Source of the DNA: Sphingorhabdus pulchriflava
Lineage (GTDB): Bacteria > Pseudomonadota > Alphaproteobacteria > Sphingomonadales > Sphingomonadaceae
Direction of reading: 5' to 3'
Assembly: GCF_003367235.1 (NCBI RefSeq)
Contig: NZ_QRGP01000001.1
Coordinates: 806,001-870,000, forward strand
Length of the DNA: 64,000 bases
Shown piece by piece: positions 3,136 through 18,084 of the stretch (position 1 is its first letter; every line of letters begins with the position of its first letter). The notes below the pieces were generated by a model. It made no database searches. It was not told where the DNA came from and saw only the letters and a program-made list of their open reading frames with translations. The translations under genes were made by a program, and so were the position numbers.

Positions 3136-3837
3136 TTGCTTGCGCTCAATGGTGAAGGTTCACTGGTCACACGTACCGCTCAGGCTTTGTCCAATTTGAG
3201 CATGGAGCATGCTCCCGGAGATTATCTGGGGGCAGAGGATGAACTGCTGGCAAAGCTGTCAGTCAGTCGTCCCACATTGCGGCAAGCGGCAAAAATAGTC
3301 GAAAGTGATCGGCTGATCAGCGTCAGGCGCGGTATCAAAGGCGGTTTCTATGCGACTCGCCCCAATGCAGCAGATGCGATCAAAGCACTTGCCCGCTATT
3401 TACGGTTGAATGGCGCGACAATCGCCGATGTTTTTGCCGTGACTAAGTTGGTCGCGGAACAGGCAGGAGCCTTGGCCGCATCGAGTCGCGATCCAGATCA
3501 TCGCGCGCAACTCACAAGGTTTAGGGATTCGATCGAACGGAATATCACGCCGGGCTCGCTGATACGGGCCGAAGGCGCGCTGGCGCGGCTGATTGCTGAC
3601 ATGAGCGGTAATCCGGCAATGCAGATCGTCATGGAGATCGGCTACACTTTTGGCATGGAAGAACAGGGGATGCGATTTTATGCCAGTGAGGTAGACCGCG
3701 AACGAACGCGGTTGCTCCAAATTACACTTTGCGATGCGATTCTGGCGGGTGACGCTGAAATTGCCAGACTGATGATGCGACGTCGGTCGGCAATGATCGA
3801 AGAGTGGATCAAGCGCGAGGTGGAGGCGACACAATGA
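3136..3837 (+). CDS. FadR/GntR-family transcriptional regulator
   Basis: The protein has 233 residues. An N-terminal winged helix-turn-helix (about 15-75, with LSVSRPTLRQAAKIVESDRL and the RRGIKGGF wing) is followed by an all-helical FCD ligand-binding domain (about 85-225), as in FadR-subfamily GntR proteins that sense small acids or acyl-CoAs. The start is a TTG at 3136, chosen because a perfect AGGAGG lies 5 bases upstream at 3125-3130. The stop overlaps the next start (ATGA). It is a good candidate for local control of the catabolic genes and possibly of its own promoter. The effector is unknown. Confidence 0.88.
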   Translation: MLALNGEGSLVTRTAQALSNLSMEHAPGDYLGAEDELLAKLSVSRPTLRQAAKIVESDRLISVRRGIKGGFYATRPNAADAIKALARYLRLNGATIADVFAVTKLVAEQAGALAASSRDPDHRAQLTRFRDSIERNITPGSLIRAEGALARLIADMSGNPAMQIVMEIGYTFGMEEQGMRFYASEVDRERTRLLQITLCDAILAGDAEIARLMMRRRSAMIEEWIKREVEATQ

Positions 3838-5063
3838 CCTATGTCCGCGAGTTCAAAGGCTTTGCCGGTATTCGGCTGGAGGCGGATGATATCGGGTCAG
3901 CGGACGATCCGTCGATCATCCTCCTTCACGGCGCAGGACAGACGCGACAGGTTTGGGAAGATGTGGCTGTCGCTTTGCAGCAGGCTGGTCGGCATGTAAT
4001 CAACATTGATTTGCGCGGACATGGCGGCAGCGAATGGCCTGAAGATGGTCGTTATGATTTTGATGCGTATGTGGAAGACTTGCGCGCTGTGCTGGCGCAG
4101 ATGCGGACACGGCCTGTCGTAGTCGCGGCAACTTTGGGAGGCTGGATTGCGACTATCGCGCTTGCGGAAGAGGCTGCTACCCTTGCTGCAGGACTTGTTC
4201 TGGTAGACTTGCCGATGACAAACGATCCAGATGTTACGCGAACAATGGCGGAAAAGTTGCGCAATCTAGCAACAACGCGGGTGGGCAAGCCGGATTACGA
4301 CGTTCGGTTTTTCGACCGATTTGATATGAGCGGCGTGATCGACAGGATCAATTCTGCCGCGTCGCAGATAAATATCCCGGTGTTGTTCGTGTGTGGCGCC
4401 CGCAGCAACCTTACGGGTGGTGCTCAAGCCGCATCATTTGTCAACCAATTGCCAGATGTAGAGGCTATTGAGGTGGAGGACAGCGGTCTGTTGGTCACGG
4501 CCGAACGCACCGAGAACTTTAATGCGTTGCTGATTGACTTTCTGGAGCGAAAGCACCCTCGCTTTGTGTCGGAATTCCGGGAAGGATCGGATGCTAGGAC
4601 CTTTCGCGATGCGCTTGGCTGCTTTGCAACGGGTGTGACAATCATCACTGCGATGGCACCCGACGGTTCACCAATCGGCCTGACTGCAAACAGTTTCACC
4701 AGCGTTTCACTTGATCCACCCTTGCTGCTCGTTTGCATCGCCAACAACGCAGGCAGTGGACCCGTTCTGCGTGAAGCGGAGCGTTTTGCGGTGAATGTGC
4801 TGCAGATCGGCCAACAGCCTACATCGAATCGTTTCGCCGGAAAGGGCGAGGATCGCTTTGCCGCCACGCCTTGGGAGATGGGTGAGTTCGGCACACCGGT
4901 GCTTACGGGCTCGCTCAGCAGTTTTGAATGCGCTCGCGATGCGGTGCATGATGGCGGAGACCATTTCATCCTGGTGGGAAGGGTCTTAAAGGCGATGTTT
5001 GAGCCTCGCCGCGATCCTTTGCTCTACTTCCGTGGTAAATATCGCCGCCTGCATTTTGCCTGA
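3834..5063 (+). CDS. Alpha/beta-hydrolase-fold domain fused to a flavin reductase domain
   Basis: This 409-residue fusion starts at ATG 3834, inside an ATGA overlap and 7 bases after GGAGG. Residues 1-240 have an alpha/beta-hydrolase fold (LLHGAG oxyanion loop, DLRGHGGS). All three catalytic positions appear altered by eye alignment: T100 at the nucleophile elbow (AATLGG), N192 at the acid and L219 at the usual histidine. The domain may therefore be a pseudoenzyme or a binding module. Residues about 255-405 form an FMN-binding split barrel of the flavin reductase family (ATGVTIITA, GLTANSFTSVSLDPPLLLVC, GDHFILVGRV), which would supply reduced flavin to a monooxygenase. No flavin monooxygenase lies in the window. 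Confidence 0.85.
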   Translation: MTYVREFKGFAGIRLEADDIGSADDPSIILLHGAGQTRQVWEDVAVALQQAGRHVINIDLRGHGGSEWPEDGRYDFDAYVEDLRAVLAQMRTRPVVVAATLGGWIATIALAEEAATLAAGLVLVDLPMTNDPDVTRTMAEKLRNLATTRVGKPDYDVRFFDRFDMSGVIDRINSAASQINIPVLFVCGARSNLTGGAQAASFVNQLPDVEAIEVEDSGLLVTAERTENFNALLIDFLERKHPRFVSEFREGSDARTFRDALGCFATGVTIITAMAPDGSPIGLTANSFTSVSLDPPLLLVCIANNAGSGPVLREAERFAVNVLQIGQQPTSNRFAGKGEDRFAATPWEMGEFGTPVLTGSLSSFECARDAVHDGGDHFILVGRVLKAMFEPRRDPLLYFRGKYRRLHFA

Positions 5064-5144: not shown

Positions 5145-6362
5145 GTGGCTTGGGCCAATCAAGACAAAACCGCTATCGTCGGTATCGGCGCGACGGACTA
5201 TTATGTTCGTGGCAAGAGCTGGCCGCGCACAATCAACGACATGGCCGCCGAAGCGATCATGAATGCCTGCGCGGATGCGGGTATCAGCCACAAGCAGATA
5301 GATGGTTTCGCCTATTATTCGACTGCAGGAGCGGGCTATCTCGACAAGTTCGATACCGCCAGCCTGATGGAAACGCTGGGCATGCCGCATATCAGCTATT
5401 CGGCAACCTTGACCTCCGGTGGCGGTGGCTGCCCAGGTGCCATTGGACTGGCGACAGCGGGCCTGATGAACGAGGATTGCACCTACACGGTGACGCTAAT
5501 GGCATTGCAACAATTGCCGCAGCATCGGCTGGGTGTCGTTTTCGGCGCCTCCGCGCCGAGCCCCGAGAATAGTTTCCTGCAACCGTCCGGACTGGTCGGC
5601 CCCGGACATCTAATGTCGATGCTGACGCGGCGTCACATGCACCTTTATGGTACCCAACCAGAGGCTTTCAAAGAAATCGTTCAGGCGACGCGAGCCAACA
5701 CACATAACCGCCCCAAGGCCGTGCGCCGCAATCCGCTATCGGACGAGGAATATTGGGGCTCGCCGATGTTGGCGGATCCATTAAGGCGTTTGGACTTCTG
5801 TCTGGAAACCGATGGTGCCGTGGCAGTCATTACGACAACGATGGATCGCGCCAAGGATTGTCGCCACAAACCCGCTGTTGTGCATGCATGTGCCCATGGC
5901 GGGCAGCGTGAATGGGGCAGGGCCTTTGCCTGGATGGGCATGCCCGATCCGCACTTCGCGTCGTCTGGCCACAAATTTACCGCTGATCGGATCTGGGCAC
6001 AATCGGGCCTCACAGCCAAGGATGTGGATGTTGCGCTTATTTACGATCATTTCTCTCCTATGGTGCTTATGCAACTGGAGGATTACGGCTTTTGCGAGAA
6101 GGGGGAGGGCAGTGATTATGTCCTATCAGGGAAAATCCGCTATGATGCCGCTACGCAAGGTGGCGTGAATGGCGGAGTGCCCGTCAATACGCACGGCGGC
6201 AATCTCAACGAAGCCTACATCATCGGCATGACCCACATTGTTGAGGGTGTCGAGCAGGTGCGCGGCACCGCGATCAATCAGGTAAAAGATGCAGAATTTG
6301 CGCTCGTTTCTGGCGGGCCCGCGTCGCTTCCTGTTTCCAGCCTCATTCTCCGGAGTGCCTGA
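5145..6362 (+). CDS. Thiolase-superfamily (Ltp2/SCP2-like) protein, first copy
   Basis: This 405-residue protein starts at GTG 5145, with GGAGAGG at 5131-5137 upstream. It has the lipid-transfer/thiolase fold: N-terminal KTAIVGIGATDY, the IYDHFSPMVLMQLEDYGF motif around Y300, and a C-terminal GGVPVNTHGGNLNEAY. At the thiolase nucleophile position the segment GGGGCPGAIG seems to offer Gly rather than Cys, with the Cys displaced by about three residues. This suggests an Ltp2-type retro-aldolase rather than a thiolase. A DUF35 partner follows one base after the stop codon, as in steroid side-chain aldolase complexes. The substrate would be a beta-hydroxyacyl-CoA. Confidence 0.8.
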   Translation: MAWANQDKTAIVGIGATDYYVRGKSWPRTINDMAAEAIMNACADAGISHKQIDGFAYYSTAGAGYLDKFDTASLMETLGMPHISYSATLTSGGGGCPGAIGLATAGLMNEDCTYTVTLMALQQLPQHRLGVVFGASAPSPENSFLQPSGLVGPGHLMSMLTRRHMHLYGTQPEAFKEIVQATRANTHNRPKAVRRNPLSDEEYWGSPMLADPLRRLDFCLETDGAVAVITTTMDRAKDCRHKPAVVHACAHGGQREWGRAFAWMGMPDPHFASSGHKFTADRIWAQSGLTAKDVDVALIYDHFSPMVLMQLEDYGFCEKGEGSDYVLSGKIRYDAATQGGVNGGVPVNTHGGNLNEAYIIGMTHIVEGVEQVRGTAINQVKDAEFALVSGGPASLPVSSLILRSA

Positions 6363-6363
6363 C

Positions 6364-6792
6364 ATGACCTATGGACCCGCTCGTGCGCTACCCGGCGACC
6401 AGATCAAGATTACTACCAACCCCGATACCGAACCCTTTTGGGAAGCGGCCAAAGAACATAAACTGACGGCTTGCCAGTGCGGAGCTTGTGGTAAATTCCG
6501 CATGCCACCAACCCCGGTTTGCCCTGAATGCGGCAGCCGCGAAAAAAACTGGCCCACATTGCCGGGCACGGCGACCGTGTTCAGCTATGTGGTATGCAAT
6601 AAGAACCCGAAAAATGGCGAGGATTATGTTTACGTGCCTGTCGTCGTTGATCTGGATGGTGCCCCAGGTGCCCGGCTGAACGCCAACGTCTCGGGTTGTG
6701 ATGCCGACGATGTGTACATCGGTATGAAGGTCGTAGTAGACTGGACACCTATTCAGGATGGTTGGGTTTTACCCAATTTCAAAAAGGCCTAA
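6364..6792 (+). CDS. DUF35 OB-fold/zinc-ribbon acyl-CoA-associated protein, first copy
   Basis: The protein has 142 residues. An N-terminal rubredoxin-like zinc knuckle (C39-x2-C42 and C53-x2-C56) is followed by an OB fold, the standard DUF35 layout (ChsH2 C-terminal domain). Such proteins dock on thiolase-fold enzymes and help bind acyl-CoA or form the active aldolase. The start at ATG 6364 follows the thiolase-like stop (6360-6362) by one base, so the two are translationally coupled and almost certainly form a complex. The second pair in this cluster, 16882-18491, repeats the arrangement. Confidence 0.85.
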   Translation: MTYGPARALPGDQIKITTNPDTEPFWEAAKEHKLTACQCGACGKFRMPPTPVCPECGSREKNWPTLPGTATVFSYVVCNKNPKNGEDYVYVPVVVDLDGAPGARLNANVSGCDADDVYIGMKVVVDWTPIQDGWVLPNFKKA

Positions 6793-6798
6793 TCAGCC

Positions 6799-9003
6799 AT
6801 GCTGAGTGATCTGCGCATCGTTGAAATCGGTGAAGGGATGGCGGTTCAAGTCGCGGGGCTGATGCTGAGCGAACTGGGGGCTGATGTGCTGAAGGTTGAG
6901 CGACCCGGCGGCGATCCTACACGCGGCACTGCGCCTTTTGCCAACTGGAATCGGGGCAAGCGCAGTTTGGAACTTGATCTGGACAGTGATCAGGGTCTCT
7001 CTGTCTTAAGGGAAAAGCTGGCGGGCGCAGACGTTTTGCTCCACCAGTTCAGTCCTGCCCAAGCTCAGGCTCGCGGACTGGACGATGCAAGCCTCGCCAA
7101 CGCTTTCCCGCGCCTCGTTGTCTGCGGTATTACCGGATCACCCCACAATCATCCAGATGTCGAGCGGTCTGACGATGAACTTCTCGTCGCCGCGCGCTGG
7201 GGTTTCCTTTATGAAAATGACGGCTATCGCGCTGGGCCGATCGTCTGGCGCTATCAGACTGGAAGCTGGGGCGCGGCGCATCTGGCGGCAGGTGGAATTC
7301 TCGCTAGGCTGGTCGAGCGTTTGCAATCGGGACGTGGCGGCGTGGCACATACATCGCTTGCGCAAGGGATGCTGTCGCAGATTCCCTTGGTCTGGGCGCG
7401 TAACAGCAAGGGGCCAATGCCAAATCCGCCGACATATCCGCCCGGTCCGAGGGCGATGTCTATGCAGCTGTTCCAGTGCAAGGATGGTGACTGGCTCCAG
7501 ATCATGGATCCCACGCGTCAGCTCGATTACGCCACTCTGCCGACGATGTGGGATGTCCTCGCGGAAGGGGCTGATCTTTCGACTGAAGAGGGAACTAAAG
7601 CTGCGTTCCGGCAGCGTCCTCTTGCAGATTGGCTTGCCGATCTTCGTGCCATGGACATTGCTGTCGAACCTGCCTTCCCGATGGGTGAAGTGCTCAAGCA
7701 TGACGACGTTCGTGCCAATGGCTATGTCATCGAAGTGGACGATCCGGAGCTGGGCAAGACCACTCAACCTAATGTGCCGTTTCACACAGATGCACCGCTT
7801 AAGACCGGTCAACCCGCGCCCAGACTAAGCGAACGTGGGGACGCGGACTGGCAGGGTAATCCCGCACCTACGGGCTCTAACGGTCAGGCACCGCACCCCC
7901 TGGCGGGAACCCGCGTGCTCGATCTTGGGATGTTCCTCGCTGGCCCTATGGCGCCGTCGCTGATGGGCGATATGGGCGCGAATGTGATCAAGGTCGAGGC
8001 GCTGACGGGTGACCGCCTTCGGTTCATGCATCGCTATTATCAGGCGGCAGCGCGTTCCAAACGATCGCTCGCGCTCGACCTCACCAAGCCAGAGGCGCAG
8101 CCTATTTTGGAACGCCTGATCAAATGGGCGGAAGTTCTTCACCACAATATGCGCTTCAAAGGTGCCAACAAGCTTGGCCTGTCTGAAGAAGCAATCCGCA
8201 AACATAATCCAAACATCGGATTTTCCTATGTCAGCGCTTATGGCCAGCGCGGTAGTCGTGGGGACTGGCCGGGTTATGACTCTATCTTCAACGCGATCGC
8301 CGGCTGGGAATTTGAAAATGCGGGAGAAGGCAACCCTCCAGTCTTTAATCGCCCTGGCACAATGGACGTGCTGTCTGCGCAAAGTTGCTTCGTCGGCACC
8401 ATGGCCTTGCTCTACGCAAAACGGGCGCATGGGAAGGGCTATAGCCTCCACAGCTCGCTGCTCGGCGTCTCGGCTTTCTCACAAGGTGAGCGATTGCTGC
8501 TGGCCGACGGCAGCCTGACCGAGACTTGGCATCTGAATAGCGACCAGACCGGATACAGCCCTTATCACCGCATTTACGAATGCGCCGACGGCCAATGGAT
8601 CGCGATTGCAGCGCATACTGAAGGTGTGCGCGAGGGTGTGCGATCGGTGCTGGGTGCGAACGAGACTGACTTCGTAGATGCCGCCAAGGTCCAGACCTCT
8701 ATCGAACTGCTCGCCGAACTAGAAGCTTTGGGTGTGCCGTGTGAAGCGGTGTTGTTTGAAGACGCGATGAACCGCTTCTTCGATGACCCGCTCAACCGCG
8801 AGCTTGGGCTGGTCTCTGTTACGTCCCAACCCATTTATGGCGAAATTGAACAGCCTGGCGAATTCTGGGACTTCGGCGACCTTTCCATGAATATAGTCCA
8901 CGCCGCCCCTGCCATCGGCCAGCACAGCGACGAGATCATGCGCGAAATGGGTTATACGGATACTGAGATAGCCGCATTCCGGGAGGCGAAGATTATTGGG
9001 TAA
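6799..9003 (+). CDS. Double-length CaiB/BaiF (class III) CoA-transferase fusion
   Basis: This 734-residue protein has two complete CaiB/BaiF units in tandem, about residues 1-345 and 365-734. Each opens with the family signature (LRIVEIGEGMAVQVAGLMLS; TRVLDLGMFLAGPMAPSLMG). The catalytic Asp that forms the aspartyl-CoA/anhydride intermediate is found in the second half (D523, in TMDVLSAQS). The matching place in the first half appears to be Ser156 (YQTGSWGAA). The protein may therefore act as an internal pseudo-dimer with one competent centre. It would activate an acid by transferring CoA from another thioester. It is the last gene of the plus-strand run and ends flush with the convergent gene at 9004. 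Confidence 0.88.
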   Translation: MLSDLRIVEIGEGMAVQVAGLMLSELGADVLKVERPGGDPTRGTAPFANWNRGKRSLELDLDSDQGLSVLREKLAGADVLLHQFSPAQAQARGLDDASLANAFPRLVVCGITGSPHNHPDVERSDDELLVAARWGFLYENDGYRAGPIVWRYQTGSWGAAHLAAGGILARLVERLQSGRGGVAHTSLAQGMLSQIPLVWARNSKGPMPNPPTYPPGPRAMSMQLFQCKDGDWLQIMDPTRQLDYATLPTMWDVLAEGADLSTEEGTKAAFRQRPLADWLADLRAMDIAVEPAFPMGEVLKHDDVRANGYVIEVDDPELGKTTQPNVPFHTDAPLKTGQPAPRLSERGDADWQGNPAPTGSNGQAPHPLAGTRVLDLGMFLAGPMAPSLMGDMGANVIKVEALTGDRLRFMHRYYQAAARSKRSLALDLTKPEAQPILERLIKWAEVLHHNMRFKGANKLGLSEEAIRKHNPNIGFSYVSAYGQRGSRGDWPGYDSIFNAIAGWEFENAGEGNPPVFNRPGTMDVLSAQSCFVGTMALLYAKRAHGKGYSLHSSLLGVSAFSQGERLLLADGSLTETWHLNSDQTGYSPYHRIYECADGQWIAIAAHTEGVREGVRSVLGANETDFVDAAKVQTSIELLAELEALGVPCEAVLFEDAMNRFFDDPLNRELGLVSVTSQPIYGEIEQPGEFWDFGDLSMNIVHAAPAIGQHSDEIMREMGYTDTEIAAFREAKIIG

Positions 9004-10396: not shown

Positions 10397-11656
10397 TTAG
10401 TTATCTACCTGCCACTCCAAAGGCAAGTTGCGGATTGAGAGCAACCCGGGGGTCACGGTTGTGTCCGTGTCTGGCTTGATGCGGAATTCGGGAATGCGTC
10501 TGAACCATTCGTCTAGCAAGCAACGCAATTCGCGTCGCGCAAGATGGGCGCCGAGGCACAGGTGTATGCCGCCTGCCAGGGTAAAGTGTCGATTGGCTTT
10601 TCGTTCAGCATCAAATTTGTGTGGGTCTGTGAATTGCGCCTCATCAAAGTTGCCCGAACTGTTGAACACGGTCACCCAATCACCTGCTTTGATTTGAACG
10701 CCGTGCCAGATGAAGTCCCGCTTCACTTTCCGTCCTGAGTTGACCAGCGGTTGGACGCGCAGAAATTCTTCTACGGCAGTCGGGATGATTTCGGGATTGT
10801 TTCGGATGCTTGCCTGAAGCGCAGGGTCCATTCCTAACCGACGGTACATTTGACTGATCGTCGACGCCACGGTGTCGAGGCCACCAAGCCACAGGAACCA
10901 GGTCATGCCAAGCACTTCTTCCGGCGTTAGCAATTTGCCATCGATAGACCCGTTGGCAATATAGCTGCCAAGAGACTCATCTGCTGTAGCCTGCTTTTCT
11001 GCTATGAAGCCACGCAGATAGGCGAGGATTCCCTGCACCGCCGCCGCCTTGGTCTCGATCGCAGGTTCGTGAAGAATGTCCCATTCCCAGGCAAGAAACT
11101 GATCGAACATGGAAAAGGGAAAGCCCATCAGATCCAAGAAGACACGGACGGGGAAAACGCGCCCGAAATCATAAGCAATGTCAACTTCGCCCCGGTCCGC
11201 AAACTGACCGATCATTTCGGCCAGGATTGCCCGGATCCGCGGTTCCATTTTTTTCATGGCGACGGGCGTGAACCACGGGTTCAGGAATTTGCGATATTTG
11301 CTGTGATCGGGCGGATCGATACCGAGCGGAATGGATGGCCATGTTTCCCCGGCAAGCCGCTGGAACTGCGCAACGCCTTCAGTGGAAAAAAGGTCATTAT
11401 CTTCATAAACTCTCTGGATATCTTCGTAGCGCGTGACCACCCACGCACCATGCTGGTTTCCGCTTGCCGGCCAAGGGTAGTAATGTATGCGCGGAAAGGC
11501 TGGATCACGAAGGATATCGGTTGGCGTATAAGGGTCAGGCAGATCATTGGCTGCTTGACCATTTGCGAAGCGCGTATCGAGAACCAACTCGGCTGGTACG
11601 TGGTCTGGTACAGGCGGCGCGCCAGTGGGGGCGAGTGGAACGGGGCAGTCTGTCAT
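10397..11656 (-). CDS. Bacterial class I cytochrome P450
   Basis: The protein has 419 residues. Visible motifs are the I-helix GGLDTVAS (258-265), the ExxR pair E297/R300 and the heme ligand C367 in LAGGIHLCLGAHLAR. The usual Phe seven residues before the Cys is Leu360. The variant AGGIHxCLGxxLAR is common in bacterial CYPs that act on terpenes or steroids. No ferredoxin or ferredoxin reductase is encoded in the cluster, so electrons must come from elsewhere; the 2Fe-2S ferredoxin at 38686 is one candidate. The start overlaps the membrane-protein stop upstream by 4 bp. The predicted role is hydroxylation of the growth substrate. Confidence 0.93.
   Translation of the reverse strand: MTDCPVPLAPTGAPPVPDHVPAELVLDTRFANGQAANDLPDPYTPTDILRDPAFPRIHYYPWPASGNQHGAWVVTRYEDIQRVYEDNDLFSTEGVAQFQRLAGETWPSIPLGIDPPDHSKYRKFLNPWFTPVAMKKMEPRIRAILAEMIGQFADRGEVDIAYDFGRVFPVRVFLDLMGFPFSMFDQFLAWEWDILHEPAIETKAAAVQGILAYLRGFIAEKQATADESLGSYIANGSIDGKLLTPEEVLGMTWFLWLGGLDTVASTISQMYRRLGMDPALQASIRNNPEIIPTAVEEFLRVQPLVNSGRKVKRDFIWHGVQIKAGDWVTVFNSSGNFDEAQFTDPHKFDAERKANRHFTLAGGIHLCLGAHLARRELRCLLDEWFRRIPEFRIKPDTDTTVTPGLLSIRNLPLEWQVDN
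10398..10407. promoter_or_regulatory. Operator-like TAGTTATCTA at P450 end
   Basis: TAGTTATCTA fits the TAGnTAnCTA form seen at 1749, 3038 and 21695. It overlaps the last codons of the P450 gene and lies 9 bp upstream of the phosphotransferase start. It could be an internal control site or a chance occurrence, because the two genes are otherwise operon-like. Confidence 0.3.
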
Positions 11657-12003
11657 GCAGCATCTCCCGAACGATAATGGCGCCCCAGCAGGAGATGCCC
11701 AACGCTGCCATCACTTTTGAAGCTGCGAACCAGCAGATAAGCGAAACTGAACAAGCCCCCCCCTAAAATCGTGAACAACCCGACAAAGGGAGCAGCAAGA
11801 CGATTTTTCTCTGTCCACCACAACCAAAGCGCCGCGAGCAGAAGATGCGCTATGAAGTCGATATTGAACTGTCCGCGCCAAGGATGGCTCATGTCGCCGA
11901 AGAAAAAATCTCCGGCAAGATCGAGCCCCATATTGGCAGCTCGCAACGTCGCCCACAGGACAAATGCCCAGCCAACGACCAGCAATATTCTTACAAAGTT
12001 CAT
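11653..12003 (-). CDS. Small three-helix membrane protein
   Basis: The protein has 116 residues starting at ATG 12003, which has AGAGGA shortly upstream; longer starts would run into the preceding gene. Hydrophobic segments at about 5-23, 47-64 and 70-93 predict three membrane helices. A conserved-looking PWRGQFNIDFIAHLLL lies before the second. I do not recognise the family with confidence; a DUF2834-like protein is possible. It lies between an amidohydrolase and the P450 with tight coupling, so it probably serves the same pathway, for example in substrate entry or membrane placement. Confidence 0.7.
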   Translation of the reverse strand: MNFVRILLVVGWAFVLWATLRAANMGLDLAGDFFFGDMSHPWRGQFNIDFIAHLLLAALWLWWTEKNRLAAPFVGLFTILGGGLFSFAYLLVRSFKSDGSVGHLLLGRHYRSGDAA

Positions 12004-12022
12004 GGCATATCCTCTTTGACGC

Positions 12023-13339
12023 TCAGGCTGCGGCAAACATGCGTTCGATATCGCCTGAAGTGACTGGTCTGCGCGCCTTGCCGATCGCATCCATGCTATC
12101 GGTTTTAAGCCCACCGAGATTGTGCCGGGGCGACACGTCGACGTGCTTACCCAGTTCGCGAAGATGTCCGACGGTGCATTTTTCACGGCCACCGTTGAGC
12201 GAGAATGCATCAAAGCTGTATTCGCGCATCACGTTCAAATGGGTGATCTTGTCGATCACGCTCTTGTCTAACCCGTTGACTGAAGCCCACAGATATTCCG
12301 GAACATTCGGCCAAACCGTATCTGAATGCGGATAATCGCATTCATAGGCCACCATGTCGACATTCATATATTCCAGATTTTTCACGCCGAATTGGTCGTC
12401 AATGAAACAGCAGATAATATGGCGCTTGAAGATATCGGAAGGACGCTCTCCGCCAAAATCACTGAACGTCCATTCGTGATGATGCTCATGTGTGAAATCG
12501 GCACGCTCCAGAAAATAGGGGATCCAGCCGATACCTCCTTCGGACAATGCCATGCGCAATTCGGGGTAGCGTTTCCAGAAACTGGCAAAGGTCCAGTCGG
12601 CGGCTGAGTTTGCGATGGAGATTGGCATAGCAGTAATCCACGCATCAATCGGGCTTTCGGGCGACGGATGCATGGCGCGGGCACCGGTGCCGATATGACA
12701 GTTGATGACCATTTTATAGTCAACACACGCCTTCCAGAAGGGCTCCCAATAGGCGTTATGAATGCTGGGTAGGCCGATATTTGCCGGGTTATCGGAAAAG
12801 GATACGGCGTGAACACCGAGCGCGCTCATACGCTTCATTTCTGCAAGTGTTGCATCCATATCCCACATCGGCACAAGACACATAGGTATGAAGCGCCCCG
12901 GGGCGGATGCGCACCATTCCTGAACGTGCCAGTCATTCCATGCCTGTACAGCAAGCAAGGCTTCATCGGGGGCACTTGTTGCCGCCGCTACGAAAACACC
13001 TCCCGCAAAGGATGGCATGGTCGGGAAATTCAGCGAGGCCAAGACGCCGTTGGCGTTCATGTCATCCACGCGCGCCTTGGGATCATAGGTGCCTTCGCGC
13101 AACTGGCTGAACTGGCTCGGTTCCATGCCATATTCCGAGCGCGGGCGTCCGACGACAGCATTCAATCCGATTGTCGGATAGCGCTTTCCGTTCCATAGCC
13201 AGATGTCTTTGCCGTCTTCTTCGACAATGCGCGGAGCCCGGTCTTTTTTGCCTTCAGGATAATGGCGGATAAATGCTTCCGGGGGTTCGACTGCGTGATC
13301 GTCAACGCTAATGATCACCATTTCGTCCATGCTGTTCAT
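12023..13339 (-). CDS. Amidohydrolase family protein (ACMSD-like), third of three
   Basis: This 438-residue amidohydrolase-2 family member carries DDH at 13-15 followed by AVEPPEAF, a central NCHIGTGA histidine and an ECDYPHSD aspartate near the C-terminus. It is more distant from the two tandem copies on the left, being longer and having a C-terminal LNGGREKC helix region, so it is not a simple duplicate. AAAGGAG lies about 8 bases before the start. Its ATG overlaps the CoA-transferase stop by 4 bp. It probably performs a distinct hydrolytic or decarboxylating step within the long operon. Confidence 0.85.
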   Translation of the reverse strand: MNSMDEMVIISVDDHAVEPPEAFIRHYPEGKKDRAPRIVEEDGKDIWLWNGKRYPTIGLNAVVGRPRSEYGMEPSQFSQLREGTYDPKARVDDMNANGVLASLNFPTMPSFAGGVFVAAATSAPDEALLAVQAWNDWHVQEWCASAPGRFIPMCLVPMWDMDATLAEMKRMSALGVHAVSFSDNPANIGLPSIHNAYWEPFWKACVDYKMVINCHIGTGARAMHPSPESPIDAWITAMPISIANSAADWTFASFWKRYPELRMALSEGGIGWIPYFLERADFTHEHHHEWTFSDFGGERPSDIFKRHIICCFIDDQFGVKNLEYMNVDMVAYECDYPHSDTVWPNVPEYLWASVNGLDKSVIDKITHLNVMREYSFDAFSLNGGREKCTVGHLRELGKHVDVSPRHNLGGLKTDSMDAIGKARRPVTSGDIERMFAAA

Positions 13340-14565
13340 GCGATTGCTCCTTTGGTTTTCAATTCTTCAATTCGGTCCCACTCGACGCCGAGTTCCATCA
13401 AGAATAGCTCGGTGTGTTCACTCGCTTCGGGTGCGCGTGTGTTGGTGATCGGTTCCCGATTGAACTGAACCGGGCTGGCGACCAGTTTGATTGGAGCACC
13501 GCCATCGGCGGACTCGACCTCAAATATCAGATCATTTGCAAGAACCTGCTCGTCCGTGCCGACGTCCGCGGGGGACTGATACATTGCCCATTGGCCACGC
13601 ATCGTTTTCAAATGTTGTACCCAATATCCAAAGGGTTTTGCTGCGATGGCTTCGACCACCAGGCTGTGTGCGGCCGCGGCATTTTCCATTACCTTTTCAA
13701 CTGTATTGAAACGTTCGTCCTCCATCAGATTGGCCAGCCCAAGATGGGTGAATGTATCTTCCAGCACTGGTCCGGGAGACAGGACGGTCAGATTGATAAA
13801 CCCGCCATCGCTCGTCTTGAACACCCCCATAAACGGGTTCGTACCGACAGCGGTCGTGCCGGGTAAGGCGTTCTGGAAAGGATTTGTGCCCATTTCCATG
13901 CAGACATCGACGCTGCATGCAGTTGCCCATACGCCTGATGAAAGCAGCGATACATCGACTTCAGTGGCTTCGCCGGTCCTTTCGCGATGGAAGAGCGCCG
14001 CCGCAATTCCGCCTGCAATGTTCATCCCTCCTATCGTATCGCCATAGGCAGGGCCCGGCTGAAGCAGCGGGCCATCGAGTTCCTTCGGTGTCACAAGGAT
14101 CGAAGAGCCGCCGCGTGCCCAATAAGCAGTTGAATCGAACCCACCCTTCTCACGCTCGGGACCTTTGTCACCATAAGCGCTGCCGCGTACATAGATGATG
14201 TTCGGGTTCGCTGCCCGGATATGCTCAATGTCGATTTTGAGCTTCTGACGCTGCGCCGGAAGGTAGTTGGTGAGGAAGATGTCGCACGTTTTTGCGATCT
14301 CGTAGATTAACTCCTGCCCTTCAGGCGTTGATACATCGATGCCGACCGAGCGCTTTCCCCGATTGGGGTGCTGCATCAGGGCGTTACGCCGTTGATCGAC
14401 CGCGAAACGCTGCAATTCTTTGATTCCTCGCTGTGCATCGCCGCGTATAGGATGCTCGATCTTGATCACGTCCGCACCCCAGTCGGTCAGCACGGCACCT
14501 GCTGCCGGGACGAAGGTAAACTGCGCCACCTCGAGCATGCGGATGCCTTTCATTACTTGCGTCAT
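13336..14565 (-). CDS. CaiB/BaiF (class III) CoA-transferase
   Basis: This 409-residue single-domain CoA-transferase has the N-terminal LEVAQFTFVPAAGAVLTDWG and the catalytic Asp176 in YGDTIGGMNIAGG, ten residues before the GIAAAL helix as in formyl-CoA transferase. HRERTGEATEVDVSLL follows. It would move CoA between carboxylic acids without ATP. It lies between the aldehyde dehydrogenase and the amidohydrolase, consistent with activating the acid the dehydrogenase makes. It complements the double-length enzyme at 6799, so the pathway has two CoA-transfer steps or two substrates. Confidence 0.9.
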   Translation of the reverse strand: MTQVMKGIRMLEVAQFTFVPAAGAVLTDWGADVIKIEHPIRGDAQRGIKELQRFAVDQRRNALMQHPNRGKRSVGIDVSTPEGQELIYEIAKTCDIFLTNYLPAQRQKLKIDIEHIRAANPNIIYVRGSAYGDKGPEREKGGFDSTAYWARGGSSILVTPKELDGPLLQPGPAYGDTIGGMNIAGGIAAALFHRERTGEATEVDVSLLSSGVWATACSVDVCMEMGTNPFQNALPGTTAVGTNPFMGVFKTSDGGFINLTVLSPGPVLEDTFTHLGLANLMEDERFNTVEKVMENAAAAHSLVVEAIAAKPFGYWVQHLKTMRGQWAMYQSPADVGTDEQVLANDLIFEVESADGGAPIKLVASPVQFNREPITNTRAPEASEHTELFLMELGVEWDRIEELKTKGAIA

Positions 14566-14568
14566 TGG

Positions 14569-16044
14569 TCAGGCTCCGTGGAATGAAATGGTTTTTTGGT
14601 AAGTGAACTCGTTCAGCCCATCTACGCCATATTCGCGACCATAGCCGGAACGCTTGATACCGCCGAACGGCGCCTCGCTTTGCATCGTTCCCGCGCCGCC
14701 GTTGATCGAAACGCCGCCGGTGCGCAATTGCAGCGCCATTTCGAAGGCAGTGCCCGCATCGGCCGAGAATATGCCACCCGAAAGGCCGAAATCGCTGTTA
14801 TTGGCGATCGCGATGGCCTCATCATCGCTGTCAAAGCCCATGACTGCGCCGATGGGACCGAATACCTCTTCCTGCGCCAATCGACTGTCGCTTCTCACAT
14901 CGACGAAGAGCGTGGGTTCGTAAAAAAAGCCCTTGTCGAAGCCATCCGGGCGTTTGCCGCCTGAAACCAGCTTCGCGCCATCCGCATAGGCGCTTTCGAC
15001 AAAAGATTCGGTGCGCGTTCGCGCGACTTCTCGGATGAGCGGTCCAAAGGAGACGCTCGGGTCCTGCGGGTTACCAATTTTAACGTGGGACAGCATGCCG
15101 CGCAGCATTTCTACATATTGGTCCTTCACAGAGTTGTGGACGAGATGGCGGGTCAGCAAAGCACAACCCTGTCCGCAGTGGGTGACGAAACCCCCGAGGC
15201 CCGCTTGTGCCGCTTGCAACAGGTCTGCATCCGGACGTACGATTAACGCCGACTTTCCGCCCAGTTCCATGACGCAGCGCGTAAGGTTATGCGATGCCTG
15301 TGCCTGGATCATTGCGCCAACTTTGTCTGATCCGGTAAAGTGGATAAGATCGATCCGCTTGTCGGTAGTCAGGAGTTTGCTAGCCTCAATATCACCGGTC
15401 ACGATGTTGAGTACACCCTTGGGCAGGCCAACTTCGTTGGCAATTTCGCCAAGAAACAGCGCTTCTATTGGGGTGTAAGGAGAGGGTTTGAGGACAACGC
15501 TGCACCCTGTTGCCAGTGCAGGTATGATTTTTCCAATGTTGAGAAAGAAGGGGAAATTATAGGGTGTGATTGCCGACACGACGCCAACCGGTTCCCTGCT
15601 GACAACACCGGTGCCAAGCGTCTTGCCGCCTTGGGCATTGGGCGTAAGCTCGACGGGGAGTGACGACATTGCAGGCCTTGAAGCGATCTCCACCGTCTTG
15701 CGTGCATGCTTCATCGGGATTCCAAACTGCAGGAAATCGGCGAGCATCCGCGTAGAACCGGCCTCGGCTATGATGAGTTCGACAATCTCCGCCTTCCGCC
15801 GATCAATAGCGTCGAGAAATTCCGTCAGCTTTGACTGCCGTTCCGTCACAGCCATGCGGCGCCACGGGCCGTTGTGAAAGGCATCGTAAGCGATACCAAT
15901 GGCATCGGAAATCGCCGCGGCCCTTCCTACAGGCGCTTCGGCGATTACGCTTTCATCTGCAGGATTGATGACCGCTTCTTTGTCCGAAGCGCGCACCCAT
16001 TCACCACCAATGTAAAGGCTATCAGGCTGCTGCAGTTTCAACAT
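14569..16044 (-). CDS. NAD(P)-dependent aldehyde dehydrogenase
   Basis: This 491-residue ALDH has ITPYNFPFF (oxyanion Asn163), FTGSDKVG, the general base E260 in MELGGKSA and the nucleophile C294 in GQGCALLTR. Length and motif spacing are normal. The start codon overlaps the SDR stop by one base (TAATG). With the SDR upstream and the P450 in the same operon, the likely order is hydroxylation, alcohol oxidation, aldehyde oxidation to the acid, then CoA transfer. The substrate is not evident. Confidence 0.93.
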   Translation of the reverse strand: MLKLQQPDSLYIGGEWVRASDKEAVINPADESVIAEAPVGRAAAISDAIGIAYDAFHNGPWRRMAVTERQSKLTEFLDAIDRRKAEIVELIIAEAGSTRMLADFLQFGIPMKHARKTVEIASRPAMSSLPVELTPNAQGGKTLGTGVVSREPVGVVSAITPYNFPFFLNIGKIIPALATGCSVVLKPSPYTPIEALFLGEIANEVGLPKGVLNIVTGDIEASKLLTTDKRIDLIHFTGSDKVGAMIQAQASHNLTRCVMELGGKSALIVRPDADLLQAAQAGLGGFVTHCGQGCALLTRHLVHNSVKDQYVEMLRGMLSHVKIGNPQDPSVSFGPLIREVARTRTESFVESAYADGAKLVSGGKRPDGFDKGFFYEPTLFVDVRSDSRLAQEEVFGPIGAVMGFDSDDEAIAIANNSDFGLSGGIFSADAGTAFEMALQLRTGGVSINGGAGTMQSEAPFGGIKRSGYGREYGVDGLNEFTYQKTISFHGA

Positions 16045-16871
16045 TATTGACCTCCCGCAAGCGACGCCCGGAAGGCGGCCATATCAACAAGGCCGGTTAA
16101 AACACCTCCGGTAAAGCCCGCATCGGTTGGCAGGCAAACGCCATTGATGAAACTTGCAGCCGGGCTGTTGAGCAAAATCAGCGGCCAGGCCTGTTCTTCG
16201 GACGTCGCCTGCCTGCCAATTGGTTTGGAGAAGAAGTCGAACACGGCTTGAGGCGCGATTTTAGTGAATTCGCTCATCATCGGCGTCGCAGTTGGGCTGG
16301 GGAAAGTACAGTTGATGCGCTTGCCTTGGGTGATCAGATCGACACCGCGTTGCTGTGTCCAGACCGCCAAAGCTTCCTTGGAAAAGCCATAACCGTCCGC
16401 AACATCATCGGGATGAGCAGCAACCCAGTCCAGCGCTTCTGCCCGGTCCTTAATCGCAACGAACTCGCTGATCAAACCGATGCGCTGCATATAGCCCATA
16501 GCGGCGTTTGATGACACGCTGACGATGGCAGCTCCGGGACGCATCCGCGGCATCCATTGTTCGCTCCAATGGCGAATTCCCAGAAAATTGACCGCGACGA
16601 CGTCCGCCGCCGGATAGGTCTGGGGAAGCCCGGCGCAGTTGAATACTGCGTCGACCTCACCTCCGATTGTGGCGACCACCTGGTCAATGGCGGTCCAATC
16701 CTTGAGATCGAGCTCGGTAAAGCTAGCTAGCGCGACGGGGGAGGTGCGGATATCGGCACCGTGTACTTCCGCTCCCAACTCCGTCAAAATGCGCGCACAC
16801 GCTTCCCCCATTCCGGAGTAGCACCCTGCAATTACGACACGCTTGCCGGCATAGCTCATCAAATTCGTCAT
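16044..16871 (-). CDS. SDR of the 3-alpha-HSD / coniferyl-alcohol-dehydrogenase type
   Basis: This 275-residue short-chain dehydrogenase has the cofactor motif GCYSGMGEA, an acidic GADIRTS turn typical of NAD preference, NCAGLPQ, a serine in VSVSSNAA and YGFSKEAL with the catalytic Tyr/Lys. The GADIR turn and the long segment between Ser and Tyr resemble Comamonas 3-alpha-hydroxysteroid dehydrogenase and coniferyl alcohol dehydrogenases. ATG 16871 was chosen because AGGAGG ends 5 bases upstream; the ATG at 16874 is only 2 bases away. It lies between the second thiolase-fold gene and the ALDH. The likely role is oxidation of a secondary or primary alcohol. Confidence 0.85.
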   Translation of the reverse strand: MTNLMSYAGKRVVIAGCYSGMGEACARILTELGAEVHGADIRTSPVALASFTELDLKDWTAIDQVVATIGGEVDAVFNCAGLPQTYPAADVVAVNFLGIRHWSEQWMPRMRPGAAIVSVSSNAAMGYMQRIGLISEFVAIKDRAEALDWVAAHPDDVADGYGFSKEALAVWTQQRGVDLITQGKRINCTFPSPTATPMMSEFTKIAPQAVFDFFSKPIGRQATSEEQAWPLILLNSPAASFINGVCLPTDAGFTGGVLTGLVDMAAFRASLAGGQ

Positions 16872-16881
16872 CATATCCTCC

Positions 16882-18084
16882 TTAATCCCGGCACAGCAGG
16901 AACGAACCCGCCAGTGGACCGCCGGCTGTCGTCATAACCGCAACCTTGGGTGTATCCTTGCCTTTGCGTTTCACTTGTCGCTCGCCGCCCAAGCCCCACA
17001 GCTGGATGCAGGCTTCATGAACCTGACCATAGGCATGCATCCGGCCAGCAGACATTGCTCCGCCATTGGTGTTGATCGGAAATTCACCATCCAGCGCAAT
17101 CCTGTGACCGCCCTCGATAAAATCCTTCGCACCCCAGCGGTCGCAAACTCCCAGATTTTCGAGCCAGTTGATCGTATGATAACTGAAGCCGTCATAGAGT
17201 TCGGCGACGTCAATATCCTTCACCGTCAGATCGGTACGGTTCCACATCATTGCTGCAACCTCTGGCTGGCATTGTGTGGCGAGCGCGTCGCCCTCCATCT
17301 GGGTCCAACTGTTGCGATAGCGCATCGAACTGCCAACGGCCTCAATCCAGGTCAGCGGGTTAGGGCCATCCTTTGCGGCATCCCGGTGTGAAAGAATGAT
17401 GGCCGTCGACCCGTCGCAGGGCACATCGCAATCGAACAGCCGCAGCGGCGTTGCGATGATCGGCGACGCCATATAGTCATCGACGGTAATCGGTGTGCGA
17501 TAGATTGCTGCCGGATTTAGTGCAGCATTGCGCCGTCCGTTGATTGCAATCTGTGCGACCTGTTCCGGCTTGATTCCAGACTTGTGGACATAGGCATTGA
17601 AGAACAATGCCTGCTGTAGCGACGCTGCATATACATGGTAAGGCGCATACCAGTTGAAGATTCCATAAACCGGTTCTCCAGGCTGGCTAAGCGCATTCGC
17701 GAAACTGGTCTTGCGCGCGGTGGCCTCGTACATGGTTCGATAGATCAGCACATGCCGCGCTAGCCCGGCTGCAATGGCCCCGATTGCGTTGAAGAGTGCG
17801 CCATATTGGCCAGAGGTCTCGCTGGCATTTGAGTACCAGTTAAGTTTGAGCCGTAGCGCGTCTTGCAGCACCGGTATGCTAATCGGGGCGAAGCCATTCG
17901 CTTCGCCGGTGCCGCCCGGCCAGCATGCCATGCCATCGATATCTTCGCGCTTGAGACCCGCATTTTCAATGGCCTGAAGTGCGGCATCGATTGTCAGGCC
18001 GAGTGCTGGCTTGTCCGCCCCGCGCGATATTTTGGACTGGCCAATTCCGCTGATAGCCGTCTGTTTTTCGGGATAGGAGGTCAT
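16882..18084 (-). CDS. Thiolase-superfamily (Ltp2/SCP2-like) protein, second copy
   Basis: This 400-residue paralogue of the 5145-6362 product has TAISGIGQSKI at the N-terminus, a central ELYDGFSYHTINWLENLGV motif and INTNGGAMSAGRMH near the end. At the normal thiolase nucleophile site it reads SETSGQYGALF, with no Cys at all, which argues against thiolysis and for an Ltp2-type aldol cleavage. Its start overlaps the DUF35 stop by 4 bp. The two thiolase-fold/DUF35 pairs differ clearly in sequence, so they probably act on different intermediates. Confidence 0.8.
   Translation of the reverse strand: MTSYPEKQTAISGIGQSKISRGADKPALGLTIDAALQAIENAGLKREDIDGMACWPGGTGEANGFAPISIPVLQDALRLKLNWYSNASETSGQYGALFNAIGAIAAGLARHVLIYRTMYEATARKTSFANALSQPGEPVYGIFNWYAPYHVYAASLQQALFFNAYVHKSGIKPEQVAQIAINGRRNAALNPAAIYRTPITVDDYMASPIIATPLRLFDCDVPCDGSTAIILSHRDAAKDGPNPLTWIEAVGSSMRYRNSWTQMEGDALATQCQPEVAAMMWNRTDLTVKDIDVAELYDGFSYHTINWLENLGVCDRWGAKDFIEGGHRIALDGEFPINTNGGAMSAGRMHAYGQVHEACIQLWGLGGERQVKRKGKDTPKVAVMTTAGGPLAGSFLLCRD

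Follow-up and report, generated by a model that had tools for sequence, protein, structure and literature searches.

A flavin reductase carrying an N-terminal alpha/beta-hydrolase-fold domain without a catalytic triad in Sphingorhabdus pulchriflava

What does an alpha/beta-hydrolase domain do once all three of its catalytic residues have been replaced and it is joined to a flavin reductase? The question is raised by one gene in a 64,000-nucleotide stretch of Sphingorhabdus pulchriflava contig NZ_QRGP01000001.1, referred to hereafter as the window. Loss of catalysis in the alpha/beta-hydrolase fold is already known, as in the pseudoenzymes and receptors GID1, NDRG, and neuroligin, which kept the fold after losing triad residues; none of this type is known to us to be fused to a flavin reductase. 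Pseudoenzymes are usually viewed as finished products. The present family displays graded stages: versions with the triad whole, in part, or missing, and others without the lid or without the domain altogether, are all found in one family and on one reductase, so that the order in which catalysis was lost and the cause of retention become measurable by ordinary assays. The family is an apt example from nature of how an enzyme domain becomes non-catalytic, and no report of such a fused, disabled, and shortened series was found in the literature searched, which consisted largely of sources other than subscription journals. The best explanation of the protein, to which we assign a probability of roughly 0.55, is that the pseudo-hydrolase attached to the flavin reductase has been retained for a non-catalytic role, as a scaffold or in regulation.

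A hydrolase domain without its triad on a complete reductase

The layout of the fusion gene and its surroundings is given in Table 1. Pfam matches to alpha/beta-hydrolase families cover residues 26-161 of the protein, while the Flavin_Reduct match, nearly end to end, spans residues 262-406. Scoring 139.6 bits against a gathering threshold of 27, with positions 2-152 of the 153-position profile covered, the C-terminal half is a complete PF01613 domain, as the sequence-only reading had proposed in describing a fusion to a flavin reductase; from this match we infer that the fusion protein would have reductase activity. The N-terminal domain belongs to the alpha/beta-hydrolase fold by its family match and by its predicted fold, which is complete (the structure used is a second prediction, superseding a first made with 8 rows at pLDDT 71). 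A sequencing error or pseudogene was ruled out by the open frame and by orthologues at 81-83% identity.

Table 1. Features of the window discussed in the text, with positions counted from its first nucleotide.
Feature	Positions	Strand	Basis
Fusion gene, 409 aa: pseudo-hydrolase and flavin reductase	3834..5063	+	ORF and domain matches
Alpha/beta-hydrolase-fold domain without catalytic triad, residues 1-245	3834..4568	+	Pfam and predicted structure
Flavin reductase domain PF01613, residues 250-409	4581..5060	+	Profile matches
Codon of T100, nucleophile-elbow position (Ser in triad-bearing relatives)	4131..4133	+	Alignment and predicted structure
Codon of D125, after strand beta6; kept in 107 of 112 relatives	4206..4208	+	Alignment
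Lid region, residues 131-180; fast-changing in the window's subclade, largely deleted in some relatives	4224..4373	+	Alignment, rates
Codon of N192, post-beta7 acid position (Asp/Glu in triad-bearing relatives)	4407..4409	+	Alignment and predicted structure
Codon of L219, post-beta8 His position	4488..4490	+	Alignment and predicted structure
GntR/FCD (FadR-subfamily) regulator; start provisional	3136..3837	+	Domain matches
Thiolase-like/lipid-transfer-type protein, next gene after the fusion	5145..6362	+	Profile matches
Zinc-ribbon/OB-fold protein (ChsH2-type domains); start provisional	6289..6792	+	Profile matches
CoA-transferase family III protein, two matched stretches	6799..9003	+	Profile matches
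Amidohydrolase PF04909	460..1683	-	Profile match
Amidohydrolase PF04909	1876..2994	-	Profile match

That the three catalytic residues are replaced in a fold that is otherwise kept, as first claimed from the letters of the DNA, was upheld when alignment and predicted structure together placed T100 at the nucleophile elbow, N192 at the acid site that follows beta7, and L219 at the His site that follows beta8. The GxSxG elbow with a Ser, Asp, or Cys nucleophile, expected of a catalytic serine hydrolase, is absent, T100 standing in its place, and the His after beta8 is replaced by L219; of the two acid sites, that at beta7 holds N192 and that at beta6 the conserved D125. A triad elsewhere in the domain, which would have overturned the claim, was searched for and rejected because no His is available between residues 63 and 241. 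We infer from these residues that the window protein would be devoid of hydrolase activity. As a control, seven of the eight other matches in the window genome were inspected, partly by eye: each of the seven has a C-terminally placed His, and the elbow carries Ser or Asp in six and is ambiguous in the seventh. The name "alpha/beta fold hydrolase", under which at least one relative has been annotated, describes the half of the fusion without a triad and serves as an annotation warning.

Triad states, selection, and shortening among relatives

A total of 140 family sequences from 148 loci were aligned, and merging identical rows and dropping those shorter than 340 aa left 112, in which near relatives are over-represented because the rows were picked, among the matches listed, for their resemblance to the protein of the window itself. 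The count leaves aside the remnants (L149-L152, L154, and L156) and the domain-less reductases (L153, L155, and L157-L175) and retains row L095, the N-terminal stretch of which is garbled, probably through a frame error. None of the three triad residues is present in 45 of these 112 distinct relatives, the window's protein among them, and a Ser-Asp/Glu-His triad is present in ten (Ser-Asp-His in seven, Ser-Glu-His in three), all of which share the fused architecture and align gap-free with the window protein at the three sites. Counted singly, Ser occurs in 33 rows, Asp/Glu in 43, and His in 24. All ten triad-bearing rows fall in one 23-row clade of the Hyphomonas/Henriciella type (SH-aLRT 99). 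Three of them (L129, L131, and L138) are from MAGs, two of which bear the label Acidobacteria and one Sulfopaludibacter; their close grouping with Hyphomonas fusions on the tree suggests that these MAGs may be mis-binned.

The 52-row Sphingorhabdus-Sphingopyxis clade (SH-aLRT 83) lacks His at position 219 throughout, and its position 100 is occupied by T (34 rows), S (12), M (5), or A (1); positions 100, 101, and 192 vary even among close relatives. The motifs HG.GQTR.VW and DLRGHGGS.WP are conserved at 90% or more across the same 52 rows, with the HG at residues 32-33 kept in 51. With the three triad columns left out of tree building, at least eight changes are required at the nucleophile, nine at the acid, and five at the His position, and three for the intact triad as a whole; the counts carry no direction of change, and the triad is assumed to be the ancestral state. 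Two distant fusions, from Agrobacterium vitis (49% identity) and Cupriavidus necator N-1 (39%), are by eye also without an intact triad. The latter (L218:6989-8347), a dead-looking version by eye, reads GANLGG at the elbow, with Asn in place of the nucleophile; its hydrolase part is longer, and it adjoins a KstD-like flavoprotein. The family is uncommon in broad samples, being matched at 1e-60 in 4 of 385 class genomes and 7 of 398 phylum genomes, the window's own included; the genus group of the window genome includes Sphingorhabdus wooponensis and other Sphingorhabdus records.

The triad-less domain is under purifying selection: the median dN/dS of the hydrolase domain was 0.02-0.19 across ten groups, the truncated group and L030 included, so that the domain is not neutral debris. 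Of the three pairs in the window's own subclade, two show saturated dS, which weakens the result there. Rates of the core and lid were compared with the truncated group and L030 set aside. Within the window's subclade (three sequences), the core (residues 1-130) accumulates non-synonymous change at 1.06 times the rate of the reductase (0.59-1.84). Relative to that core, the lid changes 3.8 times faster (2.3-6.2), while staying below the synonymous level, and the factor for the C-terminal part is 2.1 (1.2-3.6). The corresponding ratios to the core in the Ser-Asp-His group are 1.9 (1.1-3.2) for the lid and 1.2 (0.7-1.9) for the C-terminal part. Other groups weaken the contrast. Lid-to-core ratios of 1.8, 2.5, and 2.6 in three other triad-less groups and of 1.9 and 2.1 in triad-bearing ones lie close together with overlapping ranges, and a fast lid is also seen in groups missing one residue (4.3 in the Ser-Glu-Gln group, 2.9 in Henriciella). 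The Sphingopyxis core changes 1.75 times as fast as the reductase (1.1-3.0).

An order-wide search returned matches at 1e-60 or better in 57 of 396 genomes, of which 18 align from near the N-terminus, 18 from residue 169-226 onwards, and 21 over the reductase only. The hydrolase region is shortened in all 18 of the second kind. Ten of these, of 361-367 aa and from the genus group containing Sphingopyxis, have lost most of the lid together with loops and the HG and RGHG motifs, and the remaining shortened forms shrink to remnants of about 160-200 residues. The 21 reductase-only matches have no such domain, and 20 of them carry short N-terminal tails; L174 has a 64-residue tail of other sequence. 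On the reductase tree, full, shortened, and domain-less forms group as one family apart from 27 further reductases of the order (SH-aLRT 100). The same tree suggests that the domain-less reductases lost the domain rather than never having had it, a loss that the AU test does not secure (p 0.094 and 0.106). The shortened domains and domain-less reductases suggest that the hydrolase domain is dispensable in relatives. The description of the domain as a selective loss of catalysis and not decay is thus only half right: purifying selection speaks for it, and the fast lid in the clade, with the domain shortened or missing in related lineages, speaks against it.

What the retained domain may do

Under the preferred reading, the protein would be an NAD(P)H:flavin reductase giving reduced flavin to some two-component monooxygenase, and its N-terminal domain would derive from an active serine hydrolase that subsequently lost catalysis, the core (about residues 1-130) being held while the lid above the former pocket changes faster. 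As a scaffold or regulatory appendage, the domain could, for example, hold a dimer together, gate the flavin site, or dock a partner. A fuller version, which we put forward only tentatively, is that a serine hydrolase processing the product of the oxygenase was fused to the reductase of that oxygenase, lost catalysis several times independently, and kept its core as a control or docking module of the sole PF01613 reductase, the family showing every stage from intact triad to domain loss. It is also conceivable, if on balance doubtful, that the domain was left jobless by the fusion and is eroding as a passive remnant, persisting since a misfolded N-terminus would harm the reductase. The several changes at each triad position, the deletions and domain-less forms among relatives, and the faster core of Sphingopyxis would all fit such erosion; the core of the window's subclade is nevertheless about as slow as the reductase, its two motifs are conserved across the clade, and the nested loss in domain-less reductases is not secured by the AU values given above.

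The sequence-only reading had also offered that the domain may bind a pathway ligand. Flavin reductases with extra domains are already known, and in PMC10816480 C1 of p-hydroxyphenylacetate hydroxylase is described as carrying a C-terminal MarR domain at which substrate binding relieves self-inhibition. C1 offers the closest functional parallel for a reductase of this family with a sensor domain. By analogy, the pseudo-hydrolase might bind a pathway substrate and turn on flavin reduction, and the presence of C1 structures (5zc2/5zyr) among the close solved relatives of the reductase domain and of catabolic-looking neighbour genes, a regulator included, is in keeping with this. The extra domain of C1 is, however, unrelated and sits at the opposite end, the window protein having an N-terminal alpha/beta hydrolase and its reductase at the C-terminal end in place of a C-terminal MarR-like sensor; the type and placement of its extra domain set it apart from the C1-HPAH kind, and it would work like C1 only given a ligand response. 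The fast lid lends no support to ligand sensing, since the pocket-shaping lid and C-terminal part are the fastest-changing in the window's subclade and the pocket-side positions differ even between close relatives; with the least conserved part of the domain lying there and no positive evidence found for ligand binding, sensing is possible and a ligand-gated reductase improbable. Less probable still is that the domain remains a hydrolase or another enzyme of the fold with a non-standard mechanism, using for instance Thr as nucleophile and D125 as acid. The retention of D125 and of the HG motif could be taken in its favour, but there is no His after beta8 and position 100 takes four different residues among close relatives. 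The cofactor-free dioxygenases of the alpha/beta-hydrolase fold also require a His-Asp pair.

Reductase kin, neighbouring genes, and candidate partners

The PF01613 match in the fusion gene is the only one in the 3.2-Mb genome (estimated completeness 99.99%), other flavin reductase families having been outside the search. Against NCBIfam, the reductase domain scored best with HsaB (165 bits), FerA (157), and the HPAH reductase (156), each under its curated cut-off (230, 260, and 340, respectively), so it is not a member of the HsaB equivalog NF045630; the HsaB and FerA models, of 186 and 158 positions, leave no room for a hydrolase domain, unlike the window protein. Identity to 3rh7, 3nfw, and 5zyr is 42-50% over 139-148 columns. 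The hydrolase domain shares about 20% identity with E-2-(acetamidomethylene)succinate hydrolase (3kxp) and N-formylmaleamate deformylase (4l0c), rows within 1 Z being tied; both are active enzymes, unlike the triad-less domain.

The coupling to a FadR-type regulator noticed in the sequence holds, in that the stop of the upstream regulator gene and the start of the fusion overlap by four bases (ATGA, window 3834-3837), which suggests translational coupling of the two. Among 81 loci (80 plus the window), the neighbours include the regulator in 25, the thiolase-like gene in 30, the amidohydrolase in 30, and the OB-fold and CoA-transferase genes in 23 each, as counted over up to 8 kb on each side, with many contigs shorter and a simple gene caller that recovered the fusion in 75 of the 81. 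A Sphingorhabdus paralogue of about 69% identity, present together with the window-type form in two genomes, adjoins a 4HBT thioesterase in 16 loci and a gene of the hydroxyphenylpyruvate-dioxygenase type in 11. A second catabolic-looking set lies at window 10397-18084 on the minus strand, with P450, amidohydrolase, CoA-transferase III, aldehyde dehydrogenase, and thiolase-like genes.

The sequence-only reading had offered a monooxygenase as another possible binding partner of the domain. No two-component oxygenase was found among the scanned operon genes of the window, nor any HsaA-type match over cut-off in the genome (best NF045629, 38 bits versus 450). Other partner candidates were looked at: the two HpaB_N matches in the genome are weak and under cut-off; the best four of 21 PF08028 matches are ordinary acyl-CoA dehydrogenases by eye; and the LLM candidates, one SsuD-like (245 versus 518 bits) and one over the cut-off of its MsnO8 subfamily, lie outside the window. 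The fusion locus of A. vitis contains an oxygenase resembling HsaA (245 bits against a cut-off of 450), two VOC genes, and a gene of the fumarylacetoacetate-hydrolase family. In Mesorhizobium, a hydrolase is fused to a PF01613-type flavin reductase (599 aa), and in Pantoea, Ensifer, and Acinetobacter, a hydrolase adjoins the reductase; in the two loci examined for it, those of Mesorhizobium and Pantoea, an LLM oxygenase comes next. These hydrolases belong to another branch and, unlike the window's, keep a GHSMG elbow and a His (by eye), that of Mesorhizobium scoring best with PcaD-type models, under cut-off; their reductases have a C-terminal extension. Together with A. vitis, these loci suggest a common logic in which reductase, oxygenase, and hydrolase share one pathway.

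A stand-alone hydrolase of Sphingobium sp. TCM1 (L126:13063-13896), in which a His accompanies a GASLGG elbow, lies about 4 kb from the fusion; resembling the N-terminal domain of the fusion, it is possibly kin to the source of the fused domain. A different hydrolase adjoins the fusion on the opposite strand in two Hyphomonas records (L115:6976-7896 and L127:9227-10099), with a Ser elbow (AHSYGG) and a His, and a similar one occurs at L002 in the window genome.
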